Part shown: positions 47,021 to 58,710 of the stretch, piece after piece | How the letters are laid out: every line of letters begins with the position of its first letter | How positions within the stretch are numbered: the first letter of the stretch is position 1 | Source: a virus | IMG/VR virus record: IMGVR_UViG_3300015265_000001 | Coordinates: 162,986 to 226,985 of that record | Length of the DNA stretch: 64,000 nt | Direction: 5' to 3' (one strand) | The notes under the pieces: model-generated | The model's input: only the letters and a program-made list of their open reading frames with translations | Databases searched by the model: none | What the model was told of the DNA's origin: nothing | Program-made: the position numbers and the translations under genes

Positions 47021-47064
47021 GGCTATAACTACTCTCACCCCACAAAGGGTGAGAGTAGTTAGCC
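47021..47064 (+). terminator. Very strong hairpin terminator
   Basis: AACTACTCTCACCC (47027-47040) pairs with GGGTGAGAGTAGTT (47047-47060), extended by GGCT/AGCC, then TATTCTTTATTTTTTG. Confidence 0.92.
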
Positions 47065-47117: not shown

Positions 47118-47816
47118 ATGAACGAAGCTTTATTATCTACAGTGAAGAAAATAGCCAGTGGAGGAGGCCCGGGCCCCACTACACTTACTACGGGCGATGA
47201 CACCAATGGGCTGTTTGGTTCTGTTCCAGCCGGATCCTTCTTTACTGGCGGCGAGTTAGCAACTGCCGTAGGTGCGGGCTCAATGGGGACTTTGATCAAC
47301 GACACCACCGACTGGTTTAAACTAAGCAAAGATGGTCGGGTCATCTACATCCCACAGAAGGCCATCCGTATTGGGCTAACGTGGAACATGATTGATGGTC
47401 TAGGCATCAGAACCCGGGAGCAAAACAAGATCGTCACAAAAGACGGACATAATTATCTGGTTCGATTGATGACGGGGACGGGAGCTGCTTGGGCAGGACA
47501 GTTGGGTGATGACCCTGGGGGGTGTTCCGATAGTGAATACAACCGGTTTATCTATCGTCTCTGTGCTTTGAATCCTGCCAGCGAGACACCGCCAGTCTTG
47601 GGTTCTTACACATTAGCAGAGTTAGGACTGACCATAGCCAGTAACGGCTGTTGTGTGATTTGCCAAGAAGGTCTTAGCAGCACATACATACAGCGTAACG
47701 GCGGTGGCGAGACGAATAACAATGGAACCAGCTGGACCTCTATCCAGAATGGTGTGAACAGCAATCTCGGTGATCAGTATCGCGGTTGGCGTCCTGTGTT
47801 GGAACTTATTGATTAA
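47118..47816 (+). CDS. GWRP-module tail protein on the opposite strand
   Basis: 232 residues. Carries the same module as five minus-strand tail proteins: PGPTTLTTGD, LFGSVPAGSFF, a WFKLSKDGRVIYIPQKAIR strand pair, YLVRLMTG, and the C-terminal YRGWRPVLELID. It has no N-terminal adhesion or FN3-like domain. It is convergent with the tail operon across a shared terminator. A probable virion tip or adhesion protein. The start at 47118 has only a weak GAGAT site, so expression may be low or conditional. Confidence 0.65.
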   Translation: MNEALLSTVKKIASGGGPGPTTLTTGDDTNGLFGSVPAGSFFTGGELATAVGAGSMGTLINDTTDWFKLSKDGRVIYIPQKAIRIGLTWNMIDGLGIRTREQNKIVTKDGHNYLVRLMTGTGAAWAGQLGDDPGGCSDSEYNRFIYRLCALNPASETPPVLGSYTLAELGLTIASNGCCVICQEGLSSTYIQRNGGGETNNNGTSWTSIQNGVNSNLGDQYRGWRPVLELID

Positions 47817-47825
47817 TGTCGACTA

Positions 47826-47861
47826 TACCCCCTCCTGGCCTTTGCGGACCAGGAGGGGGTA
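47826..47861. terminator. Bidirectional terminator between convergent genes
   Basis: TACCCCCTCCTGG (47826-47838) pairs perfectly with CCAGGAGGGGGTA (47849-47861). It lies between stop codons of converging genes; neither side has a long T run. Confidence 0.8.
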
Positions 47862-47870
47862 ACGGATACC

Positions 47871-48329
47871 CTATGCGGCCAAGGCCACAGGCTTAGGTTG
47901 AGTTGGATTCTTAACCAGTCGGTACAGATTTACACCCAACATGATTGTTTTCTTTTTCCATGGAGTAACGCTGCTAACGTCCATGGATTCTTTCAGAATG
48001 GCGTCGATCTCTTTGCGTGTTACAGCAACTTGAGTTTCGACACCGTTCACTAATTCGGTGATGCAGTACGTGGTGCAAAGCTTGTCGTGGAGGGTGGTGT
48101 TCTGAGTGTATTCACCAATAGGAGGAAGTAACCACCACAACAACCGGGGGATTGTCGCTCCGTCGGTTTGGAATCCGGTTTCTACGTCAACCCAACGGGT
48201 AGAGTTTTCAGACCCGATGTAGTAGCGAAAACCCGGTACGGTATCCCACAGGTCTTTACCGTTGAGTACACTCGCAGTTTTGTTGTAACGCAGTTGTTCT
48301 TCAGCGCTGAACCGTGTAAATGTGCTCAT
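47871..48329 (-). CDS. DUF1353-like protein
   Basis: 152 residues. FQTDGATIPRLLWWLLPPIG and TLHDKLC are the signature of the DUF1353 family, common near phage tail and lysis genes with unknown role. AGGAGG stands six bases before the ATG at 48329; a TTG directly before it is in frame but less likely. Last gene of the minus-strand tail operon. Confidence 0.75.
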   Translation of the reverse strand: MSTFTRFSAEEQLRYNKTASVLNGKDLWDTVPGFRYYIGSENSTRWVDVETGFQTDGATIPRLLWWLLPPIGEYTQNTTLHDKLCTTYCITELVNGVETQVAVTRKEIDAILKESMDVSSVTPWKKKTIMLGVNLYRLVKNPTQPKPVALAA

Positions 48330-48350
48330 CAACGTCCTCCTGGAATGGAT

Positions 48351-48375
48351 GCCTCCCCCTCATGGAAGGGGAGGC
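48351..48375 (-). other. Intercistronic hairpin in the tail operon
   Basis: GCCTCCCC (48351-48358) pairs with GGGGAGGC (48368-48375). There is no U tail, so this is more likely an mRNA-stabilising or processing hairpin than a terminator. Confidence 0.5.
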
Positions 48376-48383
48376 GGTGGTGT

Positions 48384-49037
48384 TTACAACGAGAAGTATT
48401 CCGCGGGGGCTACCGGGAGATCTTCAATGGTAGCGGCATTGGCGATGGCGTCTTTGTACGCCCACGACACGTTGTAGCCAGCAACAACCTGTTGGAACGT
48501 TCTGTCAGCCAGAGCAACCATTTCTGGTGCAGTGAGTGATACCGAAACGTTTTCGAACACACGGAACGGGAACGACATCTCCTGGTTGGCTGCAATCATT
48601 TCCTTGGCGATGGTACGCAAGTCGGAAATGTTGCCGCGGTCAGAAGCGCGCACCTGTACGTGGTAGATGGTGTCTTCGCTGAACTGGTAAGGGAACCCCT
48701 TGGCGAACGCAGCAATACGCAACGACTCGGCTTGAGCAGCAAGCGTTGTCTTACGGTCCTGGAGCTGGCCTGCGGCTTCTACTTCGCTGTAGGAACGCAC
48801 TACCCAGGTTTGGTACCAATGGCCGTCACGCAGCTCTGGAGCGCCCTCAGTGACCACATCACCGGCAGGAGCGGGAGTGTCTTCGACAACTTCAAAACCC
48901 AGTTCGAAAAGCAGGTCCGAATCAACGGTTGGTCCGAAGCAAGTGTTCGGTTGATACTTGGGCATGTCAGCCAAGTAAATTGGGTACGCGCCCGAATCAG
49001 AATGAATCAGACGGGTGGTGCGAGTTACTGTGGTCAT
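48384..49037 (-). CDS. DUF4376-like tail-fibre accessory protein
   Basis: 217 residues; AAGGAAACGTTT precedes the ATG at 49037. WYQTWVVRSYSEVEAAGQLQ, RKTTLAAQAESLRIA, then VQVRASDRGNISDLRTIAKE follows the DUF4376 layout, a domain often at the end of tail-fibre or tail-fibre-assembly proteins. Its position at the end of the fibre operon agrees. Role as a chaperone or capping subunit is inference. Confidence 0.65.
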   Translation of the reverse strand: MTTVTRTTRLIHSDSGAYPIYLADMPKYQPNTCFGPTVDSDLLFELGFEVVEDTPAPAGDVVTEGAPELRDGHWYQTWVVRSYSEVEAAGQLQDRKTTLAAQAESLRIAAFAKGFPYQFSEDTIYHVQVRASDRGNISDLRTIAKEMIAANQEMSFPFRVFENVSVSLTAPEMVALADRTFQQVVAGYNVSWAYKDAIANAATIEDLPVAPAEYFSL

Positions 49038-49047
49038 AAACGTTTCC

Positions 49048-49953
49048 TTAAAGGATGAGTTCGAAAAGAGGCCGCCAGCCGTGAAGTGAGTGAGTGGCAC
49101 TAGCGTTCAGGCTGACGTTCAGGAGATCAGGGTTGGCGCCGCTGCCTCGGTTAATGCAAGTGCTGCTTTGCAGGTCGGTAGAGAACGTAATCCAACTGGC
49201 GTTGGCGATATCGTCCAATTGCTTGAGCCCTAGCGTGTCAGGATAGTTACGAGCCTGGAACGCGTAGGAGAGAATCAAGTCATACTCGCCGCCAATCTGG
49301 TCAGCCGCCACAGCGCTGGTGCTTGCCATTACCGCACGAGAAGTAGGGACCCGCATAACAAAGGCGTTATCGCCACGGTTAACGACCTTACCCTGTGCAA
49401 TGGTACCAAACGTGGTCTTGGCATACGGCGCCCAGTCAGTGCTAGGGAAGTTACCGTAGATCACACCAGCTCGATACAGTTGCTCCCAGGTCAGTGTGCT
49501 GAACAGCGCCTGGCTAGCGATATAGATAATTTTTCCTTTATACACGAACTTCAACCAACCCAAGGTGGCGTCGGTGTTCTCTGTCACAGTGGCGGCAAAG
49601 CCACCCGCAAACACTTTGCATTCTTGTGCCGAGAACAGGTCAGACATCGGCATCTTGCCGAAGTAACCAAAGTTCCAGTCACCACGAAGCAGAGTCTGTG
49701 GGCCCGGGCCAGTATAAGGCATGTAGGCCAACGCCTTGTTAGGGGTCAGCGCCACATCGGTTCCCTTACGAGAAGCTACCCGGTAGTAGTACAGTTGATT
49801 ACGTACTACGGTGTTATCCGTGTAGGTCAACGTTCCGGCAGGGACAACCGCCAACGACGCAGGAAGCGACGCATCAGCAATCGGTGAAGCGGAACGGTAG
49901 ATCGTGTAGTCATCCGCCGTGTTAGGGTCGGTCCAATCAAGCTTGATGGGCAT
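49048..49953 (-). CDS. GWRP-module tail protein with FN3-like N-terminus
   Basis: 301 residues. N-terminal 80 residues (DWTDPNTADDYTIYRSASPI, then TYTDNTVVRNQLYYYRVASR) have the strand order of fibronectin type III/Ig-like folds. The C-terminal module runs from GPGPQTLLRGDWNFGYFG through GWLKFVYKGKIIYIASQAL to HGWRPLFELIL at the very end. Ribosome site GGAGGG. Likely a tail-tip or adhesion subunit. Confidence 0.7.
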   Translation of the reverse strand: MPIKLDWTDPNTADDYTIYRSASPIADASLPASLAVVPAGTLTYTDNTVVRNQLYYYRVASRKGTDVALTPNKALAYMPYTGPGPQTLLRGDWNFGYFGKMPMSDLFSAQECKVFAGGFAATVTENTDATLGWLKFVYKGKIIYIASQALFSTLTWEQLYRAGVIYGNFPSTDWAPYAKTTFGTIAQGKVVNRGDNAFVMRVPTSRAVMASTSAVAADQIGGEYDLILSYAFQARNYPDTLGLKQLDDIANASWITFSTDLQSSTCINRGSGANPDLLNVSLNASATHSLHGWRPLFELIL

Positions 49954-49964
49954 TTAACCCTCCG

Positions 49965-50912
49965 TTAAGCCGGGATGTATTCAAGAACAGGTACCCAGGA
50001 AATCCAGGACCCCGATGCGGCACCTGTGATGGCCCGCGCGAAAACGTCTGACCAGTTGCTGTTGCTAACCGACCAGTTGTTTGTAGAGTTGAAGTGTTGG
50101 GTGGCAGTCAACGGATAAGGAACCCCAGTTGCATCACCCCATTTGTTTGGTTGCAGCAATGGAACGTCAGCGGCCAGAATAGACGTGGTCAGGGAGCACA
50201 TCAGTTCACACCATTCACTGCCTTTAAAGGTGGTGCGATCTGGTACGTTCTGGTCTGTCGCCAGGGTGCTGTTTTTAGGGCAGCGCACTAGGAAGCTGTC
50301 ACTGCCTACCGTTACCACTCTTTTCTGGTTAACCGTGGTCGGGATGTTCGGGCTCGCCCCTACCGTGGTCAGGTTGAATGGAGCGGCACCAGGGCCGTCT
50401 ACTCCATACACCAAACCTTGGTTGTAGATCTGAGACCACGTCGCTGTCCCCGTTGCTGTAAAGATGGCGTTGGGGAAGAACAAGATCTTGCCTTTAAAGA
50501 CAAACTTGTACCAACCCGTCATCGTGTTATCAGCGGGAGCACTACCTATCTGGTTCGTGATCGATAAAGCGGATCTGAGACCAGAGATAGTAAACAGCTG
50601 GGCAACGGGGACAAACCCCATATACCCGGCGTTCCAGTCGCCCCGGAGAACGGTATTGTTACCAGGTCCCGTTTTGGAGAAGTTACCGTACAACATGCAT
50701 TGGCTGTATTGCGTCGTTGCGCCTGCTTTAACGGCCTCCAGCATGTAGTAACGAACACTTCGATCCGCAACCGTGGTATCTGTATAAGTCACGTCGGTAG
50801 GGCTCAACACAACCTTTGTAGCGGGTAGAGCAGCCCACGTAAACGGAGTGTCCGACCAATACAGCGTCAGACCATCTACCGTCATCGCAGGCCAATCGAT
50901 TTTAATCGACAT
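49965..50912 (-). CDS. GWRP-module tail protein with FN3-like N-terminus
   Basis: 315 residues. Same plan as 49048: an FN3-like domain (SIKIDWPAMTVDGLTLYWSD), then GPGNNTVLRGDWNAGYMG, WYKFVFKGKILFFPN, FLVRCPKN and a C-terminal ISWVPVLEYIPA, in which GWRP has become SWVP. The most diverged C-terminus of the set. Twelve bases separate it from 49048. Confidence 0.7.
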   Translation of the reverse strand: MSIKIDWPAMTVDGLTLYWSDTPFTWAALPATKVVLSPTDVTYTDTTVADRSVRYYMLEAVKAGATTQYSQCMLYGNFSKTGPGNNTVLRGDWNAGYMGFVPVAQLFTISGLRSALSITNQIGSAPADNTMTGWYKFVFKGKILFFPNAIFTATGTATWSQIYNQGLVYGVDGPGAAPFNLTTVGASPNIPTTVNQKRVVTVGSDSFLVRCPKNSTLATDQNVPDRTTFKGSEWCELMCSLTTSILAADVPLLQPNKWGDATGVPYPLTATQHFNSTNNWSVSNSNWSDVFARAITGAASGSWISWVPVLEYIPA

Positions 50913-50921
50913 AAGGACTCC

Positions 50922-51872
50922 TTAACTATCGATCAGTTCGAGTACTGGCCACCAGCCATAATTAAGGCCGTTGTACGTTGCGATACCACGGTTGGCAATA
51001 CCCGTACGGTTCGCCGTTGTGTTACCCCGCAACAGGTTGTTAGAGGCCGCTACAGCCGACACACGTTCCTGAATAATGGAACCGAGAGTTACGCCTGTCA
51101 GCGCCATGCCCAAGTCAGCAACGGTCGCCTGCTGAACGTTAGCCATGCGCTGAAGGTCTGGACAGTACATCGACAACGGATAGATAATGTCATTCCATTC
51201 GTTTGGCCAGAGTTCAGTTGGTTCCGTAACTGACGGAGTTGCGGGGAAACGTGTCAGGGTGTCATCAAACCCCGTCATGCAGCGAACACGGAACTGATCG
51301 CCACCGATGGTAACCTTGGCACTTTGGTTAACGTTGGCGCCGGCGTTGTACGGACCAGGGCCGTCCACACCGAAGACCAGACCCAGGTCGTAAAGGGTTT
51401 TCCAACTGATGTTACCGCACAAAGGACCGTTAGGAACAAAGAGTACTTTGCCGTTACGAATCCATTTATGCCAGATAGGGCCCTGTTGGTTAACCGAACC
51501 TACGGTCAGACCCACTGCGGCACGCAAGTCGTTGGTGTTAATCAACTCACCCGACGTAACTGTGCCGAAGTAACCGTAACTGAAATCGCCAATCGTAACC
51601 GCTACTGGGCCGGGGCCTTTACGAGGGTTTGCAACGATTGGGATGTTGTTGGAACTTTGCTTATCCCCGTTTGCGGTCAGGGTGGTTTCAAACACGTAGT
51701 AATACGTCGTACCACGAACAGTAGTGGTATCGGTGTACGTGCTCTCGCCTGCGCTCAACGTAGCAATGGGGTTAGCCAGGTTGGAGCGGTCAAGTGGCGA
51801 GGTGCCTCGGTAAATCTTTGTGGTGAACGTACCTGGGGCGTTCAGGTTCGTCCAGTTTAGTACCGTATCCAT
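50922..51872 (-). CDS. GWRP-module tail protein with FN3-like N-terminus
   Basis: 316 residues. FN3-like domain (VLNWTNLNAPGTFTTKIYRG, then TYTDTTTVRGTTYYYVFE) followed by the module: GPGPVAVTIGDFSYGYFG, WHKWIRNGKVLFVP, FRVRCMTG and YGWWPVLELIDS at the end. VFGVDGPGPYN parallels VYGVDGPGAAP of 49965, so these two are probably closest to each other. Confidence 0.7.
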   Translation of the reverse strand: MDTVLNWTNLNAPGTFTTKIYRGTSPLDRSNLANPIATLSAGESTYTDTTTVRGTTYYYVFETTLTANGDKQSSNNIPIVANPRKGPGPVAVTIGDFSYGYFGTVTSGELINTNDLRAAVGLTVGSVNQQGPIWHKWIRNGKVLFVPNGPLCGNISWKTLYDLGLVFGVDGPGPYNAGANVNQSAKVTIGGDQFRVRCMTGFDDTLTRFPATPSVTEPTELWPNEWNDIIYPLSMYCPDLQRMANVQQATVADLGMALTGVTLGSIIQERVSAVAASNNLLRGNTTANRTGIANRGIATYNGLNYGWWPVLELIDS

Positions 51873-51882
51873 ATTTCATTCC

Positions 51883-52893
51883 TTAAGCGACGTAAGACCC
51901 AGAGATGGTGAAGGCCTTGAGCGTGGAGGACTCGTTGGTTCCTTTGATGCCGATAGGTTTTAGGGCCAAGTCGGCAAAGCTGTAGGTGACCTGCGGCAAT
52001 TGGTATTGCCAGAGTTGTTGACGAGGATTGGCTGGGCGTATGGCGCCCAAAGACCATTGCCGTACATCGTTGATGACAGGGGCGAAAGGACCGACCGAGT
52101 TATAACGGAGTGCGTACGGATCTTTAGCCACGGTATCAGGAATAAGTTCCAATACCGGACGCCAGCCATGAATGCTACTTGAGCCAGAAAGTTTATCCGT
52201 CTTAAGTATGGTTCTGGCCATAGCCAAGATTTGACCAGAGGTACCGTCACCACGAACAATGCATTGGTTGACATTAGACGTGATGGTTTCTTGCACAATG
52301 GTGTCTGGACTGGACGATGGGGACAGACCAGTAGCCGCGTAGGTAAAGTTTGCAAACTTGGGTGCACCTACTCCGCCGTTCGAATCGTTAACGGTACGAC
52401 CAAACAGTTGGTTCCATTCCCCAGTGAAGATGTTGCCTCCCGTAGTAGGATCAGCTGGGTAACCTGTCGGTAGACGTGGTTTCAGAACCCACAACTTCTG
52501 ACCTTCATACTTCGGCATCTGGATGTATTGGAACTTTGGAGTTGCCAACGGATACTTACCGTTATCCCGAGTTCCGTATACCAGACCGGCGGCATAAAGA
52601 TCAGCCCAGGAGATGTTGCTACGGAAAGGCATCTTCGCAATGAAAATGACTTTACCGTTCCAAATGAACTTCAGCCACATGTTACCGTTAGCCGCAGCGA
52701 CCGCAGTGGGGTTGTCCGTCCCCAGATACAAGCCAGCCTGCCCAGCAACCTGAGCAGGTGTAAACAGCTGAAGATCGGTTACCTCACCAAAGTAACCTAG
52801 GGTTGCATCACCGGCAATTAGAGTCTTAGGACCAGGCCCAGAATCGCCGATGTAAATTTGTTGGCCCCCCGTGGAGAGCAGCGTTTCAATCAT
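51883..52893 (-). CDS. GWRP-module tail protein with C-terminal extension
   Basis: 336 residues from an ATG at 52893 with AAAGAGGGAAGTATC upstream. It begins MIETLLSTGGQQIYIGDSG and goes straight into the module (GPGPKTLIAGDATLGYFG, MWLKFIWNGKVIFIAKMPFR, SIHGWRPVLELIPD). Unlike its neighbours it then adds about 85 residues after the GWRP strand. It lacks the FN3-like domain. Confidence 0.7.
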   Translation of the reverse strand: MIETLLSTGGQQIYIGDSGPGPKTLIAGDATLGYFGEVTDLQLFTPAQVAGQAGLYLGTDNPTAVAAANGNMWLKFIWNGKVIFIAKMPFRSNISWADLYAAGLVYGTRDNGKYPLATPKFQYIQMPKYEGQKLWVLKPRLPTGYPADPTTGGNIFTGEWNQLFGRTVNDSNGGVGAPKFANFTYAATGLSPSSSPDTIVQETITSNVNQCIVRGDGTSGQILAMARTILKTDKLSGSSSIHGWRPVLELIPDTVAKDPYALRYNSVGPFAPVINDVRQWSLGAIRPANPRQQLWQYQLPQVTYSFADLALKPIGIKGTNESSTLKAFTISGSYVA

Positions 52894-52906
52894 GATACTT
52901 CCCTCT

Positions 52907-54160
52907 TTAAGCAGGTCCGACGAGTTCCAATACCGGACGCCAGCCGTAACCACCGTGAGTGGATCCAGGAGCCTGATACCACAAACCATTGAACCCTGGA
53001 TAACCTCGAGTTAGAGGACCGTTGGTTGAGTACTTTTCTTGGCAGAGCGTCAGCTCGCCGTTGGCAGTACCGCCGTTCCAGTAAACATCAGTGTTGCTGT
53101 AGTTCGCCCATCGATCAGATGCTGGACCGGTGTAGTTCACAGTTACACGTCCAAAGTAGGCGTTATACTCACCACCACCCGAAGACGCCGGATCTGCGTT
53201 ACCACCCGTCATTACGCGGACTTTGTAAATGTTACCGCCGATGTTAAGTGTTTTGGTACCTTTAATAGCACCGATAGCATCGAGGGTTTCCCACAGTACC
53301 GCCGTCCGCATCGGTTTCTTAGCGATGTAGAACGTCTTGCCATTATCAATAAACTTCAACCAGTTCGGGTTAGGGTCAACCAAAACTGTACCCGTGATAC
53401 CCAATGCAGTTGCCAATGCGCTTGCCGTGATCAGATCTGCACCGGCGACCTCACCCTTAAAAGGACTTGGTGGAATGCTGGATTTCTTTACCAGCACTGG
53501 GCGCCAACCGTAATACCCTTGTGGGTTATTGGCCGGCATATTCCAGATACCCATGATTGGGTGGTTGCCGCTGGAGTTCTGCCAGTCGTTACCGCGCAAG
53601 CAGTAACCGTTAGTCAAACTTTCAGCACAAACGGTAAATACACCGTCGCTAAGGTCAGCACCACCAGGAGCACCTAACCCCAACATTGTTCTTGTGTAAT
53701 TACCCCAAATAGGAGCGGATTCGATACCGACACGATCCGTGTTGTCATAAATGGCGTACATGTAACGGTTCCACTCGCCGCCGGCGTTGGAAGGCACTGC
53801 CGCTGCTGCGGTAGAAATAGCACCCGTCATCATTCGGACAATGTACACTTCGCCCCTGACGGTGATTTCTTTTGCCCCGTTGCTTGTTGCAGCCATGATC
53901 TGTTCGTACGTTGCAGCTGCACGAATAGGTTTCTTGGCAATGTACAGCTCGAGACCAGAATCTTCGATGAAATGGAGCCAGCCGCTATCGACGTTCATCG
54001 CAACCCCTGCTGACAATCCCACCAGGGTAGCCAGGGCGTCCCCGTAAACAAAGTCGGCAGACCCTGTTATTCCTTTATACGGTGTTCCAGCTGGAAAGGG
54101 TATGTCCGAATTGTCGTTAGCTCCCTGTTTATATCCTAATCCAAGCATTGCTTCGATCAT
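52907..54160 (-). CDS. Tail protein with two tandem GWRP modules
   Basis: 417 residues. Two modules in a row: one ends YYGWRPVLVKKSS near residue 225, the second GYGWRPVLELVGPA at the end. Each has a lead GDALATLVGLSAG / ASALATALGITG helix, a WLHFIEDSGLELYIAKKPIR / WLKFIDNGKTFYIAKKPMRT strand pair, a VYIVRMMTG / IYKVRVMTG strand and a GGEWNRYMYA / GGEYNAYFGR strand. The internal repeat supports treating the module as an autonomous fold of about 190 residues. Confidence 0.75.
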   Translation of the reverse strand: MIEAMLGLGYKQGANDNSDIPFPAGTPYKGITGSADFVYGDALATLVGLSAGVAMNVDSGWLHFIEDSGLELYIAKKPIRAAATYEQIMAATSNGAKEITVRGEVYIVRMMTGAISTAAAAVPSNAGGEWNRYMYAIYDNTDRVGIESAPIWGNYTRTMLGLGAPGGADLSDGVFTVCAESLTNGYCLRGNDWQNSSGNHPIMGIWNMPANNPQGYYGWRPVLVKKSSIPPSPFKGEVAGADLITASALATALGITGTVLVDPNPNWLKFIDNGKTFYIAKKPMRTAVLWETLDAIGAIKGTKTLNIGGNIYKVRVMTGGNADPASSGGGEYNAYFGRVTVNYTGPASDRWANYSNTDVYWNGGTANGELTLCQEKYSTNGPLTRGYPGFNGLWYQAPGSTHGGYGWRPVLELVGPA

Positions 54161-54229: not shown

Positions 54230-57200
54230 TTAAGGAACTACGGCACCCGCTGCGCCCGTCCACTCCACACCATCCCAGGTGAAGGTGATGTAGGTACGGC
54301 TACCAGTCAGAGCTGGTGGCGAACCACCGTTCCAGACCAGCGCTGTCGCACCCGTAGGAGCAAAGGTAATTACCCCCGCTGCACCGTTGATTTTCATCAC
54401 CAGCACTTTGGCTCGGGCAGGGGATTTTGGTCCGTCGCCCAAGGTAATGGTTTTGGCTGTAGCGCCGGTGTTCGTCACAACGATGAACTGATCAACCAAT
54501 GCATCGATCGTAGCCGTTGCCGAAATAGTCCGGATAGCCAGATCGTACTGGTTGAATTCAATCCAGCCGTTGTTCTTGTAGACGTAGGTCTTGTTGTCGT
54601 TACCACCAGCTGGGCCGGAGATACCAGGAGTAACCGGCGTGTAGACAACCCACGTGTGGTCACCTTTACGCAGGTACAGGTTGGTATCAGTCGGTACGTC
54701 AGCAAAGCCAGGTACGAAGGCGTTGATCTGGGCTTGCAGCTTACCGAAGGCTGTGATGACAGTATCAGCGGCTACAACAGCGGTGGCGGTTGCCAGGCTG
54801 AAGCCAGTCAGCGTAGTCGAACGAACCCGTGCTTGCGTGAAGTAGAGGTTAGTGGTGCCCTCTACAACAGCGTCCGAGGTACCTGGAGAAGCTACCAGCC
54901 CTACATACGTCGAACCCGACCAACGGTATTGCGCGTTGGTGTTGAGCGCGATGTAGATTTTGCCAGATTCACCTGTAGCCGGGAAAGCCGCTTGGTTAGC
55001 GAACTCCAACACGTCATCGACATAGCTCGGCAGTTGACCTGCCGGGATGGTGCCGTTAACGAGGGTAGCAACCGAAACGCCCAGCTCTGTAAGAGCAACA
55101 CCGCCCAGGCTAGCCAGTGTAGGAGGGGTATAAACCGCCCAGTCACCGAGCAGCTGCCCATTCAGGCGCAGACGCATGTACGGATTGCCATCAGCCGGTG
55201 GTTCGTTGATTTGAGGTGGGAATACCAGCTCAACCCACTCACCTTCGTTGGTGGTACTGCCGTCAACCAATTGGCGAACGTACAGCTTACCGTCAACCAT
55301 GTTCGGCGCTTCGTCTACCAGCAGAGGTACCCACTCGTTACCGAGGCGGACAACCTTACCAACAGACACCTCTGGCGAGTTGACATCACCCGCAACCAGC
55401 TGACCCCAGTAGACCCAACCGCGATCCGCCGTTTTGTAGTAGACCTTGAAGCTGTCCGATACAGCCCAGTCACCGATGTTACCGGTGAAGCCAGCACCCG
55501 GAGCATCTTGGCCGGCAGGCAGAGTAATCCAGGACGAACCTTTATCACCCTTGTCGCCTTTCTTGCCAATGCCCTGAGGGCCAGGAACACCCTGGATACC
55601 CTGAGGACCACGAACCAGACCGATGTCGATCCACTTACCACCATCGGCAGTCGTCCAGATGGCCAGGTTGTTACCAACCAGATAACCGTCACCCAGGTTG
55701 CCTGTAGGGTGAGCAGTTGCCAGATCACCCAGAGTGTTGTACGCACCGAGGATGTTGATCGACGTACCCGCGTCACCTTTCTCACCGTCTTTACCTTGAG
55801 GACCAGGCAGACCAGTGATATCGAAAGGACCGGCCCACGCACCATCGGTCAGGACATAGAGCATCTTGTCGTTGGCGGTGAAGTAACCATCGCCTTCTTC
55901 AGCAACAGAGGTAGTTGGCAGGTAAGTAGGACCAGCCACCACACCACGCAGCTTGATACCGGTACCCATCGGGCCTTTGTCGCCAGGCGCGCCTACGGCA
56001 CCACCATCAACCCACTCACCACCGATAGACAGCCGAATGCGTTTGTCCAGGTCAACGTAAGCCTTACCTGGGTTAGCCGCAGCATCCGGTGGAGTGGCGT
56101 CTTCTGGTGTCAGTACCTTGATGATGGTAATCGAGGAACCATTTGCACCATCGTTACCGTTCTGCCCGTCTTCACCTTTGAAAGACCCCAGAGGGATCCA
56201 GCCACCACCTACATAAGCGTAGAGGGTATTGGTGTCACGTACCGAGTAAACATCTTGCTCGGCAGGTGTAGCGGTCAGTTCAGTAAAGGTCGAAACCGAA
56301 CCTTTGATGATGATGTTGGTACCGTTAGTGCCGTTGGTGCCTTTAAGGCTGACCAGGAACTCATTCTCGGAACCGCTGTGACCTTGAGCCAGCCACAGTT
56401 GATACGTCGATTGACCGCGGAATGGACCTACGTCTTCCCACACGCCTTCGGTGAGAATGTGCAGGTGGCCATCGTCATTGGTGACGTAGCCGTCTTGCTC
56501 TTCTGGGTTTACGATGTTGCCCAGTTGAGCAGCGTTGGCCACGGTGCCTTTAACAGTCAGGTTCTTACCGCGAGGACCATCCGGACCTGGTACAGTCGAC
56601 TTGAGGGAAACCAGCCACTGTTGCAGAGTACCGGAGAAACCGTCTTCCACAGCCAGTTCGTAGGCGGACAGACCACCAACCGAACCGAGGTCAACGTATT
56701 GGGCTTCATCGGTCACCCAGACGTACAGGTGACTACCGACATACCAGGCTTCAGTTGCAACACCCGGCGTCGGCAGAGCGGCTTCAGATGGCTGAGAACC
56801 CTTGACTTCGAAAGGAGACCGCGCAGGACCTTCGTTGCCCGGAGGACCAGGTTCAGTGGACTTCAGGGTATTCAGGAAGTCTTGCAGCGTGCCAGCGTTG
56901 CCGGCCTGCAACCAGAGTTGGTAGTTATCCTTACCGACCAGGCTTGCCAGCCATTGAGGCTTAGTACCCGAGAAGCCATCTTCGACGGCGATCTCATAAG
57001 CACTTTGACCAGCAGGACCTTCCAGACCCAGCGAAGACCATACTGGTGTTTCTGGATCATTACCCGCACCGCCAGGGATCAGGATCCAGAGATCGCTCTT
57101 CCACAGGTATGCATCACCAACAGCGTTGATGCTTGGATCCGGCAACGCTTGACCCGAAGGCCAGGTACCCAGCAGTGTCAGACCGCGGTCGCCCAACAGG

Positions 57201-57988
57201 CTACCAGAATCGACCCACTCAGTGCTGTTCCAGATAAACAGCGCGCCTTCTACGAAGTAAGCCGTACCGTTGGCCAGACCTTCAGTAGGAATGGCATCCA
57301 GCTCAGCCTGAGAATTCAGACGACCGATAACCTTGATGTTACCGACCTCGCCATCCTTACCTTGCAGGCTGGCAATCCATTCTGCTTCGGTACCGATGGT
57401 AGGGTCCAGGCGTTTGGCCGTTTGGTAAGCGGATTCACCCACCAGCTTGGCCAGCCACTGAGGTTCAGTACCGGTTTCGCCGTTGGCTACCGCAACCTCG
57501 TAGGCGCTCCTGCCGTCGTCACCTTTCAGACCGATAGTGACCCAGCCGTCAGGTTGAGGAATGAGCAGCCAGATGTCGCTCTTCCAGACATACGCGTCAC
57601 CCACTTCGTTCAGGGTGTGATCCGGCAGGGCCTGGTTATCTGGCCAGGTACCCAGCAGGGTGATACCACGAGGACCCAACAGGGAACCCGAGCTTACCCA
57701 TTCAACGGCGTTCCATACTTGCAGCGAGCCTTCAACAAAGTAGGCGTCGCCTTTGCCCAGGCTTTCGGTTGGGAGAGCATCCAATTCAGCCTGGGTGATA
57801 CGACCGATAACGTTCAGACCGTTAACCACCAGAGCCAGGAACTGGTCGTAGAGGTAACGGGTACGGTTAGCCAGGAGAATAGGGGCACGGTTGTCCGGGC
57901 CATCAGGACCGCCACGGACGGGTTCCCCTTGATCGATAAGGGGGATGTCTTGGGGGAATACACTTTCTTCAGTGATGTTTGTAGGCAT
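54230..57988 (-). CDS. Long tail fibre protein with SAY and collagen-like repeats
   Basis: 1252 residues. Residues about 60-180 and 220-350 are a duplicated unit: IGRITQAELDALPTE / IGRLNSQAELDAIPTE, then WNAVEWVSSGSLLG / WNSTEWVDSGSLLG, LLGTWPDNQALP / LLGTWPSGQALP and GDAYVWKSDIW / GDAYLWKSDLW. Short repeats of the type SAYEIAVEDGFSGT-x-QWLASL occur at least four times, the usual tail-fibre linker. Gly-x-y collagen stretches (GPPGNEGPA, GPQGIQGVPGPQGIGKKGDK) alternate with small Trp-rich domains. Collagen stretches suggest a trimer. Ribosome site AAGGGACG. Likely the host-contact fibre of the virion. Confidence 0.85.
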   Translation of the reverse strand: MPTNITEESVFPQDIPLIDQGEPVRGGPDGPDNRAPILLANRTRYLYDQFLALVVNGLNVIGRITQAELDALPTESLGKGDAYFVEGSLQVWNAVEWVSSGSLLGPRGITLLGTWPDNQALPDHTLNEVGDAYVWKSDIWLLIPQPDGWVTIGLKGDDGRSAYEVAVANGETGTEPQWLAKLVGESAYQTAKRLDPTIGTEAEWIASLQGKDGEVGNIKVIGRLNSQAELDAIPTEGLANGTAYFVEGALFIWNSTEWVDSGSLLGDRGLTLLGTWPSGQALPDPSINAVGDAYLWKSDLWILIPGGAGNDPETPVWSSLGLEGPAGQSAYEIAVEDGFSGTKPQWLASLVGKDNYQLWLQAGNAGTLQDFLNTLKSTEPGPPGNEGPARSPFEVKGSQPSEAALPTPGVATEAWYVGSHLYVWVTDEAQYVDLGSVGGLSAYELAVEDGFSGTLQQWLVSLKSTVPGPDGPRGKNLTVKGTVANAAQLGNIVNPEEQDGYVTNDDGHLHILTEGVWEDVGPFRGQSTYQLWLAQGHSGSENEFLVSLKGTNGTNGTNIIIKGSVSTFTELTATPAEQDVYSVRDTNTLYAYVGGGWIPLGSFKGEDGQNGNDGANGSSITIIKVLTPEDATPPDAAANPGKAYVDLDKRIRLSIGGEWVDGGAVGAPGDKGPMGTGIKLRGVVAGPTYLPTTSVAEEGDGYFTANDKMLYVLTDGAWAGPFDITGLPGPQGKDGEKGDAGTSINILGAYNTLGDLATAHPTGNLGDGYLVGNNLAIWTTADGGKWIDIGLVRGPQGIQGVPGPQGIGKKGDKGDKGSSWITLPAGQDAPGAGFTGNIGDWAVSDSFKVYYKTADRGWVYWGQLVAGDVNSPEVSVGKVVRLGNEWVPLLVDEAPNMVDGKLYVRQLVDGSTTNEGEWVELVFPPQINEPPADGNPYMRLRLNGQLLGDWAVYTPPTLASLGGVALTELGVSVATLVNGTIPAGQLPSYVDDVLEFANQAAFPATGESGKIYIALNTNAQYRWSGSTYVGLVASPGTSDAVVEGTTNLYFTQARVRSTTLTGFSLATATAVVAADTVITAFGKLQAQINAFVPGFADVPTDTNLYLRKGDHTWVVYTPVTPGISGPAGGNDNKTYVYKNNGWIEFNQYDLAIRTISATATIDALVDQFIVVTNTGATAKTITLGDGPKSPARAKVLVMKINGAAGVITFAPTGATALVWNGGSPPALTGSRTYITFTWDGVEWTGAAGAVVP

Positions 57989-58028
57989 GACTCGTCCCTT
58001 CAGGAAATGAGTTTAAAGATGTAGGTCC

Positions 58029-58616
58029 TTACTGGTAGGTAAGAGTCCCGTCGTGCAGATACGTGCCGTCGTGGATAGCGTCAGTGATAACACCACCGTT
58101 ACTTTCAACAATCGTCAGAGTACCTACAACGGTATGTGAATCGATGGTAACCAAAGTCACCGGTTGATCAATCGAGATTTCTTCATCAGCCAGCACATAC
58201 TTGCAGCTGTTCTTGATGATTTGCAGCACTGTTGCAGCGTCTTTGGAACCCTTACTCACCAAAACTGCCCCCGACACACTATCACCCTCTCCTGACAGAA
58301 GGTAAATGCCCTGTACCGTTTTTGCCTGAAGATCAGCAAGGGCCAGCGGTGTGGGTTCAATCAGGTTAGCCGGTCCATTGGCAGTGTAGTCAGCCGGCTG
58401 ATACTTCTGGTCGACTCCTGTGAAAAGGGACGGTGAATCAACATCGACCAGGTAAGTGATGATGCCCGCATTGTCCGCTTTACGGAAATTCGAGAAAGTG
58501 ACTTGGCCGAGGGTCAGGGCTGTGAGTGCATTTACGAAGGTCGGTTCATCCTTATAGCGGTCTTGGTTATAAGCGATAAACCTGTCCAAAAACAGTTGTT
58601 CGTTTGGAAAGGCCAT
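58029..58616 (-). CDS. First gene of tail operon, paralogue of 38085
   Basis: 195 residues from an ATG at 58616 with GTGGAAC upstream. QLFLDRFIAYNQDRYKDEPT near the start aligns with the start of the plus-strand protein at 38085. The rest is alpha/beta with no recognised motif. Position upstream of the long fibre suggests a virion or assembly role. A longer in-frame start at 58661 has no better site. Confidence 0.55.
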   Translation of the reverse strand: MAFPNEQLFLDRFIAYNQDRYKDEPTFVNALTALTLGQVTFSNFRKADNAGIITYLVDVDSPSLFTGVDQKYQPADYTANGPANLIEPTPLALADLQAKTVQGIYLLSGEGDSVSGAVLVSKGSKDAATVLQIIKNSCKYVLADEEISIDQPVTLVTIDSHTVVGTLTIVESNGGVITDAIHDGTYLHDGTLTYQ

Positions 58617-58710
58617 ATTTAGTTCCACAGTGGGGTCAGGGGGCTTGGAGCATAAAATCAAAAGTAAAATATAATAGCCAAACCTATTAAGTTATAATAA
58701 AACTCAAACC

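Follow-up and report, generated by a model that had tools for sequence, protein, structure and literature searches.

A repeated module in fixed-order gene cassettes of a phiKZ-type giant phage and its possible part in a head-borne adhesive complex

Seven copies of one module of about 190-235 residues are encoded by six open reading frames in the window, the 64,000-nucleotide stretch of viral DNA analysed here (positions 162,986 to 226,985 of IMG/VR record IMGVR_UViG_3300015265_000001, a record of 226,985 bases). Judged by sequence comparison, four of these genes, E-D-C-B, form a fixed-order cassette whose positions are not interchangeable. We give an even chance to the reading that such cassettes encode non-equivalent subunits of one head-borne adhesive complex in phiKZ-type giant phages. 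The repeat is real and highly significant, and its proteins are part of a known head-protein family so far left without explanation; what is new is the fixed cassette, its inheritance as a whole unit, a module shared with tail-fibre tips and shared anchor peptides.

The module and its seven copies

An earlier note on this DNA had described one module in seven copies in six genes, two of them in the gene at 52907, and this description holds: each held-out copy was recovered by a leave-one-out profile built from the other six with 84.7-123.9 bits, compared with a top score of 11.5 bits among 999 shuffled modules, and none of the other open reading frames of the window scored above 4.3 bits against the module profile. 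BLASTP between copies gave E values of 1e-4 to 1e-27 for most pairs, the weakest pair being C/F1 (E 0.09). Copy F (52907..54160, minus strand, 417 aa) contains F1 at about 53492-54124 and F2 at about 52919-53464. E (51883..52893, minus strand), the first cassette position and the proposed anchor, contains the module at about 52141-52839 followed by a C-terminal tail. In D (50922..51872, minus strand, position n1, 316 aa) and C (49965..50912, minus strand, position n2, 315 aa) an FN3-like domain accompanies the module, which lies at about 50931-51617 and 49974-50669, respectively, and B (49048..49953, minus strand, position n3, 301 aa) combines an FN3 domain with the module at about 49054-49710. 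Copy A (47118..47816, plus strand) is a single-module protein of 232 aa, with the module at about 47166-47810, and lies on the opposite strand outside the cassette. A 15-pair hairpin is present just 5' of copy A at 47026-47061, and a GTG at 47049 falls inside it, which favours ATG 47118 as the true start.

The closing motif GWRPVLELI, which had been given as the end of the module, is exact in A and E only, and the remaining copies end in variants of it (GWRPLFELI in B, SWVPVLEYI in C, GWWPVLELI in D, GWRPVLVKK in F1 and GWRPVLELV in F2). The first ATG in the frame of E is at 52989, within F, and the gene had been taken to start there; alignment with relatives instead sets the start at 52893, which is the most likely position, and E therefore does not overlap F. 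The C-terminal tail of E, overlooked earlier, comprises 85 residues (about 51886-52140) and ends AFTISGSYVA; its C-terminal end is conserved among relatives, and the tail has no match among the other proteins of its own genome.

These genes are part of an operon on the minus strand that starts with a phrog_18233 protein (58029..58661, minus strand), a homologue of the N-terminal domain of the E-position proteins of phage RisingSun. A collagen-like repeat fibre protein of 1252 aa (54230..57988, minus strand; phrog_3904 tail fiber, E 1.5e-168) adjoins F directly upstream, in a gene order that is conserved. Copy B is followed by a DUF4376 protein (48384..49100, minus strand; PF14301, E 1.5e-12), and the operon ends with a DUF1353 protein (47871..48332, minus strand; PF07087, E 7.8e-17) whose group, phrog_1158, PHROG annotates as a tail assembly chaperone; both are conserved neighbours. 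A 1122-codon open frame at 54656-58024 (plus strand), antisense to the fibre gene, is probably a by-product of the composition of the fibre repeats. Scanning the region for promoters and terminators gave sites no more numerous than in shuffled sequence.

Cassette order and inheritance

Across loci the gene order is fixed, an E-type gene with module and C-terminal tail coming first and two or three FN3-module genes after it. Cassettes also occur in tandem: E-D-C-B is present twice in loci L024 and L028, triplets are present three times in L030, L031 and L039, and L034 has four. We built a FastTree phylogeny of 184 modules with the N-terminal domains removed, some inner branches of which are weak, and found that the position labels change 15 times, close to the minimum of 9 and far from the mean of 130 obtained after shuffling. 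Copy A has as its nearest neighbours in this tree gp452 of phage 201phi2-1 and the F modules. Furthermore, the trees of the individual positions are congruent at the level of single cassettes (mean Mantel r 0.811 versus 0.291 when reshuffled); this test covered three positions in 11 genomes that have at least two cassettes, members being reshuffled between the cassettes of a genome, and the highest reshuffled value was 0.500, with 0 of 2000 trials reaching 0.811. The few label changes and the Mantel agreement therefore indicate that cassettes are inherited and duplicated whole while their positions keep their identity. An array of interchangeable tips, as the earlier note had proposed, does not fit with these results, as each gene keeps a position-specific lineage and cassettes duplicate as units. 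Such inheritance of the whole cassette would be expected of non-equivalent partners in a single complex; linked duplication could produce the co-inheritance but does not, by itself, account for the retention of every position. Distances between the E, D, C and B genes are poorly correlated among six close relatives, a comparison of 15 pairs only.

None of the six close relatives, a set that includes the window, lacks any part of the cassette. F is absent beside the cassette in L018 and carries an added Kelch propeller in L007, where F is 81% identical, and the slot after the DUF1353 gene is filled by copy A in the window and by other module genes or none in the relatives. Thus the accessory copies vary and the cassette does not, so that a comparison of module content, proposed earlier as a check, finds variation in the former and a constant set in the latter. 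No orthologue of copy A was found in the near relatives compared or by a pattern scan of viral contigs. An extra C-terminal Kelch propeller was observed in F-type or related proteins of L007 (8001-10091), L009 (14217-16406) and L017 (8371-9906), and F of the window has none; from the sequences this difference reads as a gain or loss between close relatives. Hypervariable tips were considered and rejected, since the mean identity of the module among the six close relatives is 74-83%, about equal to that of the FN3 parts; in the same comparison the module is more conserved than the fibre (69%) or the DUF4376 protein (62%).

Fold of the module and its occurrence elsewhere

The AlphaFold2 model of B, made with 57 sequences (mean pLDDT 89.7, pTM 0.82), shows an FN3 domain followed by the module. 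Foldseek of this model against the PDB returned many FN3 domains at probability 1.00 (TMt up to 0.67) and nothing clear for the module part, and the N-terminus of B also gave a profile match to the Fn3-like 3mpc (E 0.0011). With C and D assigned by alignment to B, the earlier claim of FN3-like N-termini in three of the proteins is borne out. In a model of E made with 21 sequences the module is folded and the tail, with pLDDT below 50, is predicted to be disordered. The structure-prediction check suggested before was thus run on two of the seven copies, B and E, and came out as expected in that strands and helices follow the same order in both; because only these two were modelled, the same fold in the other copies rests on homology.

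In the PDB the E model came closest to Treponema denticola variable protein 1 (TvpA, 2y3c), which we take to be a protein of the C-type-lectin fold. This top-ranked match is weak (E 0.022, prob 0.38, TMq 0.24) and suggestive only, pointing to a fold of the module that may be C-type-lectin-like. An adhesive role is plausible for both proteins; unlike the variable proteins of the TvpA type, the window's genome gave no sign of a diversity-generating retroelement, as no reverse transcriptase (PF00078) was found in the record, which may be incomplete. Searching a viral structure library gave 31 matches at E <1e-3, the named ones being phiKZ-type phage proteins, mostly annotated as virion structural proteins. 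Pfam and NCBIfam assigned no family to the module, and its sequence found no relatives in the PDB, where the FN3 part alone gave sequence matches.

In other phages the module is joined to a range of partners. It is fused to Kelch propellers in L007, L009 and PhiPA3, to a laminin-G-like domain in L023 and to both Kelch and F5/8 type C domains in L062, while in L052 an Mtd_N domain stands ahead of it. L056 has a tail-fibre N-terminus followed by the module, encoded after the baseplate wedge genes, and in Halomonas prophages (L077 and L041) the module gene lies in the tail-tip region. These fusions and positions indicate that the module serves elsewhere as a distal tip and thus support an adhesive role: by analogy the role of a binding tip is plausible, and the module probably enables the particle to adhere to surfaces. 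Two scans of genome contigs gave no match in the first and one Halomonas prophage in the second. The module of L077 (6001-7044, a contig of Halomonas halocynthiae DSM 14573) directly follows tail-tip genes, and it sits in a cellular genome, far from any giant phage.

Place in the virion and competing explanations

F is 64% identical to gp078 of Pseudomonas phage Noxifer and is the orthologue of its N-terminal part, and among the proteins of the record is one related to an RNA polymerase beta protein of that phage (29% identity, E 1e-27); we therefore treat the virus as phiKZ-type. All six proteins match phrog_1062 (E 8e-40 to 2e-134), and such profile matches assign them to a known phiKZ-type virion family, phrog_1062 / 3589 / 16120 / 21620. 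Searching with the D protein found 118 phage records, in which phages of Erwinia, Pseudomonas and Salmonella predominate, and the phages among the matches listed are giant phages of >200 kb. In 201phi2-1 the orthologue of F is gp456, with 39% identity in an alignment that covers 99% of F; gp452 and gp456 have the module in common with the window proteins, and their records list them as virion proteins seen by mass spectrometry and note a similarity to phiKZ gp83 and EL gp155. Unlike the window, 201phi2-1 has no E-D-C-B cassette in the stretch examined. RisingSun gp196-204 consist of two cassettes and one single gene, and gp196, gp200 and gp204 were detected by mass spectrometry of crude lysate (PMC6034870). 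The authors of that study read a DNA motif repeated in gp196, 199, 200, 203 and 204 as possible co-regulation (PMC6034870). These five genes (locus L072) all encode FN3-module paralogs, and the motif may be simply shared coding sequence.

The position of the proteins in the particle is best addressed in Salmonella phage SPN3US, where the module profile matches gp145-153 (SPN3US_0145 to 0153, E 8e-32 to 5e-50), which are three E-n1-n2 triplets. Paralog family B of this phage comprises gps 83, 138-154, 161 and 237 (PMC5694885), and it is by the published range gps 138-154 that we place gp145-153 in it. Published proteomics places family B both in virions and in particles without tails from a gene 64/112 mutant; the fibre/baseplate paralogs gp168-170 are absent from the latter (PMC5694885, PMC5105663). 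A second, better defined tailless mutant confirmed the head assignments with three revised, gp41, gp237 and gp259 (PMC10052503). The window proteins are homologous to gp145-153 through the module. Their setting differs, as family B also holds module-less DUF7941 proteins (e.g. gp138-144, 154 and 160), and the window has a four-gene cassette with an E that lacks DUF7941 in place of triplets; a search with gp144 found no DUF7941 protein in the window's own genome at E<=1. The DUF7941 domain is present in many members of family B, though some of those with the module lack it. As the SPN3US counterparts are classed as head proteins, a class that may include the neck, and are found in tailless particles of two mutants, the label of tail proteins given to the six earlier is by analogy probably wrong for this lineage.

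How such proteins might be held on the head is suggested by the termini of the E-position proteins. SPN3US gp145, gp148 and gp151 start with the DUF7941 domain of gp138-144 and gp154. These three proteins and gp160, reported as an abundant head protein with >300 estimated copies, end in a common C-terminal peptide, NGELDGF or close to it (L074/L075), which is a candidate capsid-docking signal. The RisingSun E-position proteins start with the domain that the window's 58029 gene and its neighbours encode as separate proteins; in the window lineage E has no N-terminal domain and the 58029 product is a lone protein at the operon start. The latter and one RisingSun E-position protein have a C-terminal motif in common (HDGTYLHDGTLTYQ / YNGLFTHNGTLHY), which in the 58029 protein is possibly a docking peptide. 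The C-terminus HDGTYLHDGTLTYQ also recurs among relatives of the 58029 protein. Assignment of this protein to DUF7941 was rejected (HHalign prob 3%), and it forms the separate family phrog_18233.

We infer from the above that E is the anchor subunit of a hetero-oligomer displayed outward. The module would be a phage adhesion domain, probably C-type-lectin-like, built into fixed-order cassettes, E-D-C-B here and E with two or three FN3-module partners elsewhere. The flexible C-terminal tail of E would fix the complex to the head, with help in other lineages from an N-terminal domain also present in separate proteins of adjacent genes. The FN3-module subunits D, C and B would join E in fixed proportion, their modules facing outward and weakly holding cell-surface or environmental molecules in the manner of T4 Hoc, while F, A and the Kelch-fused relatives would be accessory carriers of the module, differing from one close relative to the next. 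T4 Hoc is a head-displayed decoration of Ig domains. The likeness to it lies in the proposed head display of binding-type domains; no sequence relation is claimed, the window proteins consist of FN3 domain and module, and outward display is a proposal here. The repeats, the cassette order, the orthology by position, the inheritance of whole cassettes, the FN3 domain of one copy and the fusions to binding domains were established in this work, and the head association by others in a relative.

A different reading, which we consider rather unlikely, is that the six proteins are tail-fibre tips or a baseplate array, each with a different receptor. The window's operon speaks for it and against a head-borne complex, as the collagen-like gene belongs to a tail-fibre PHROG and the DUF1353 protein to that of a tail assembly chaperone, pointing to a fibre and possibly a tail; the module also caps a tail fibre in L056 and, in Halomonas prophages, is encoded in the tail-tip region. 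However, the SPN3US counterparts are assigned to the head, whereas gp168-170 are lost or strongly reduced in the two tailless mutants; the cassette positions do not exchange, and module and FN3 domains show about equal conservation among close relatives. It is unlikely that the proteins have a purely structural role as capsid decorations or parts of the neck, giving the head stability without binding a ligand. Such a role would agree with the fixed cassette order, the high conservation among close relatives and a Hoc-like external density at the SPN3US hexamer centres that has no assigned protein, yet the number of cassettes (1-4) and the accessory copies vary freely between phages, and elsewhere this module forms the end of a tail fibre.

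We regard it as improbable that these proteins lie inside the head, are packaged together with the DNA and enter the host on ejection. The SPN3US authors do flag gp141, gp143 and gp160 of family B 'Head ejection?', but FN3 and lectin-like domains and fusions to Kelch, laminin-G-like and F5/8C domains suggest outward binding, and the module is a tail-fibre tip in other phages. The eight processed head proteins listed for SPN3US also include no member of family B, a point that is not decisive. As to the head-borne adhesive complex, block inheritance of linked genes can arise without physical association, which has to be held against it.

Family B has been presented as a paralog family that may exceed in size any other within one phage genome. 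The cassette logic, the tip module and the anchor peptides together offer a concrete and testable function for this family, for which none had been proposed, and they caution that a gene beside a fibre gene need not be a tail gene. We put forward more tentatively, as a possibility short of likely, that phiKZ-type giant phages carry on the head a second receptor-binding or adhesion apparatus of hetero-oligomeric, lectin-tipped complexes, to which amplification of whole cassettes adds specificities. If this is true, the heads of giant phages, and not their tails alone, may serve in attachment.
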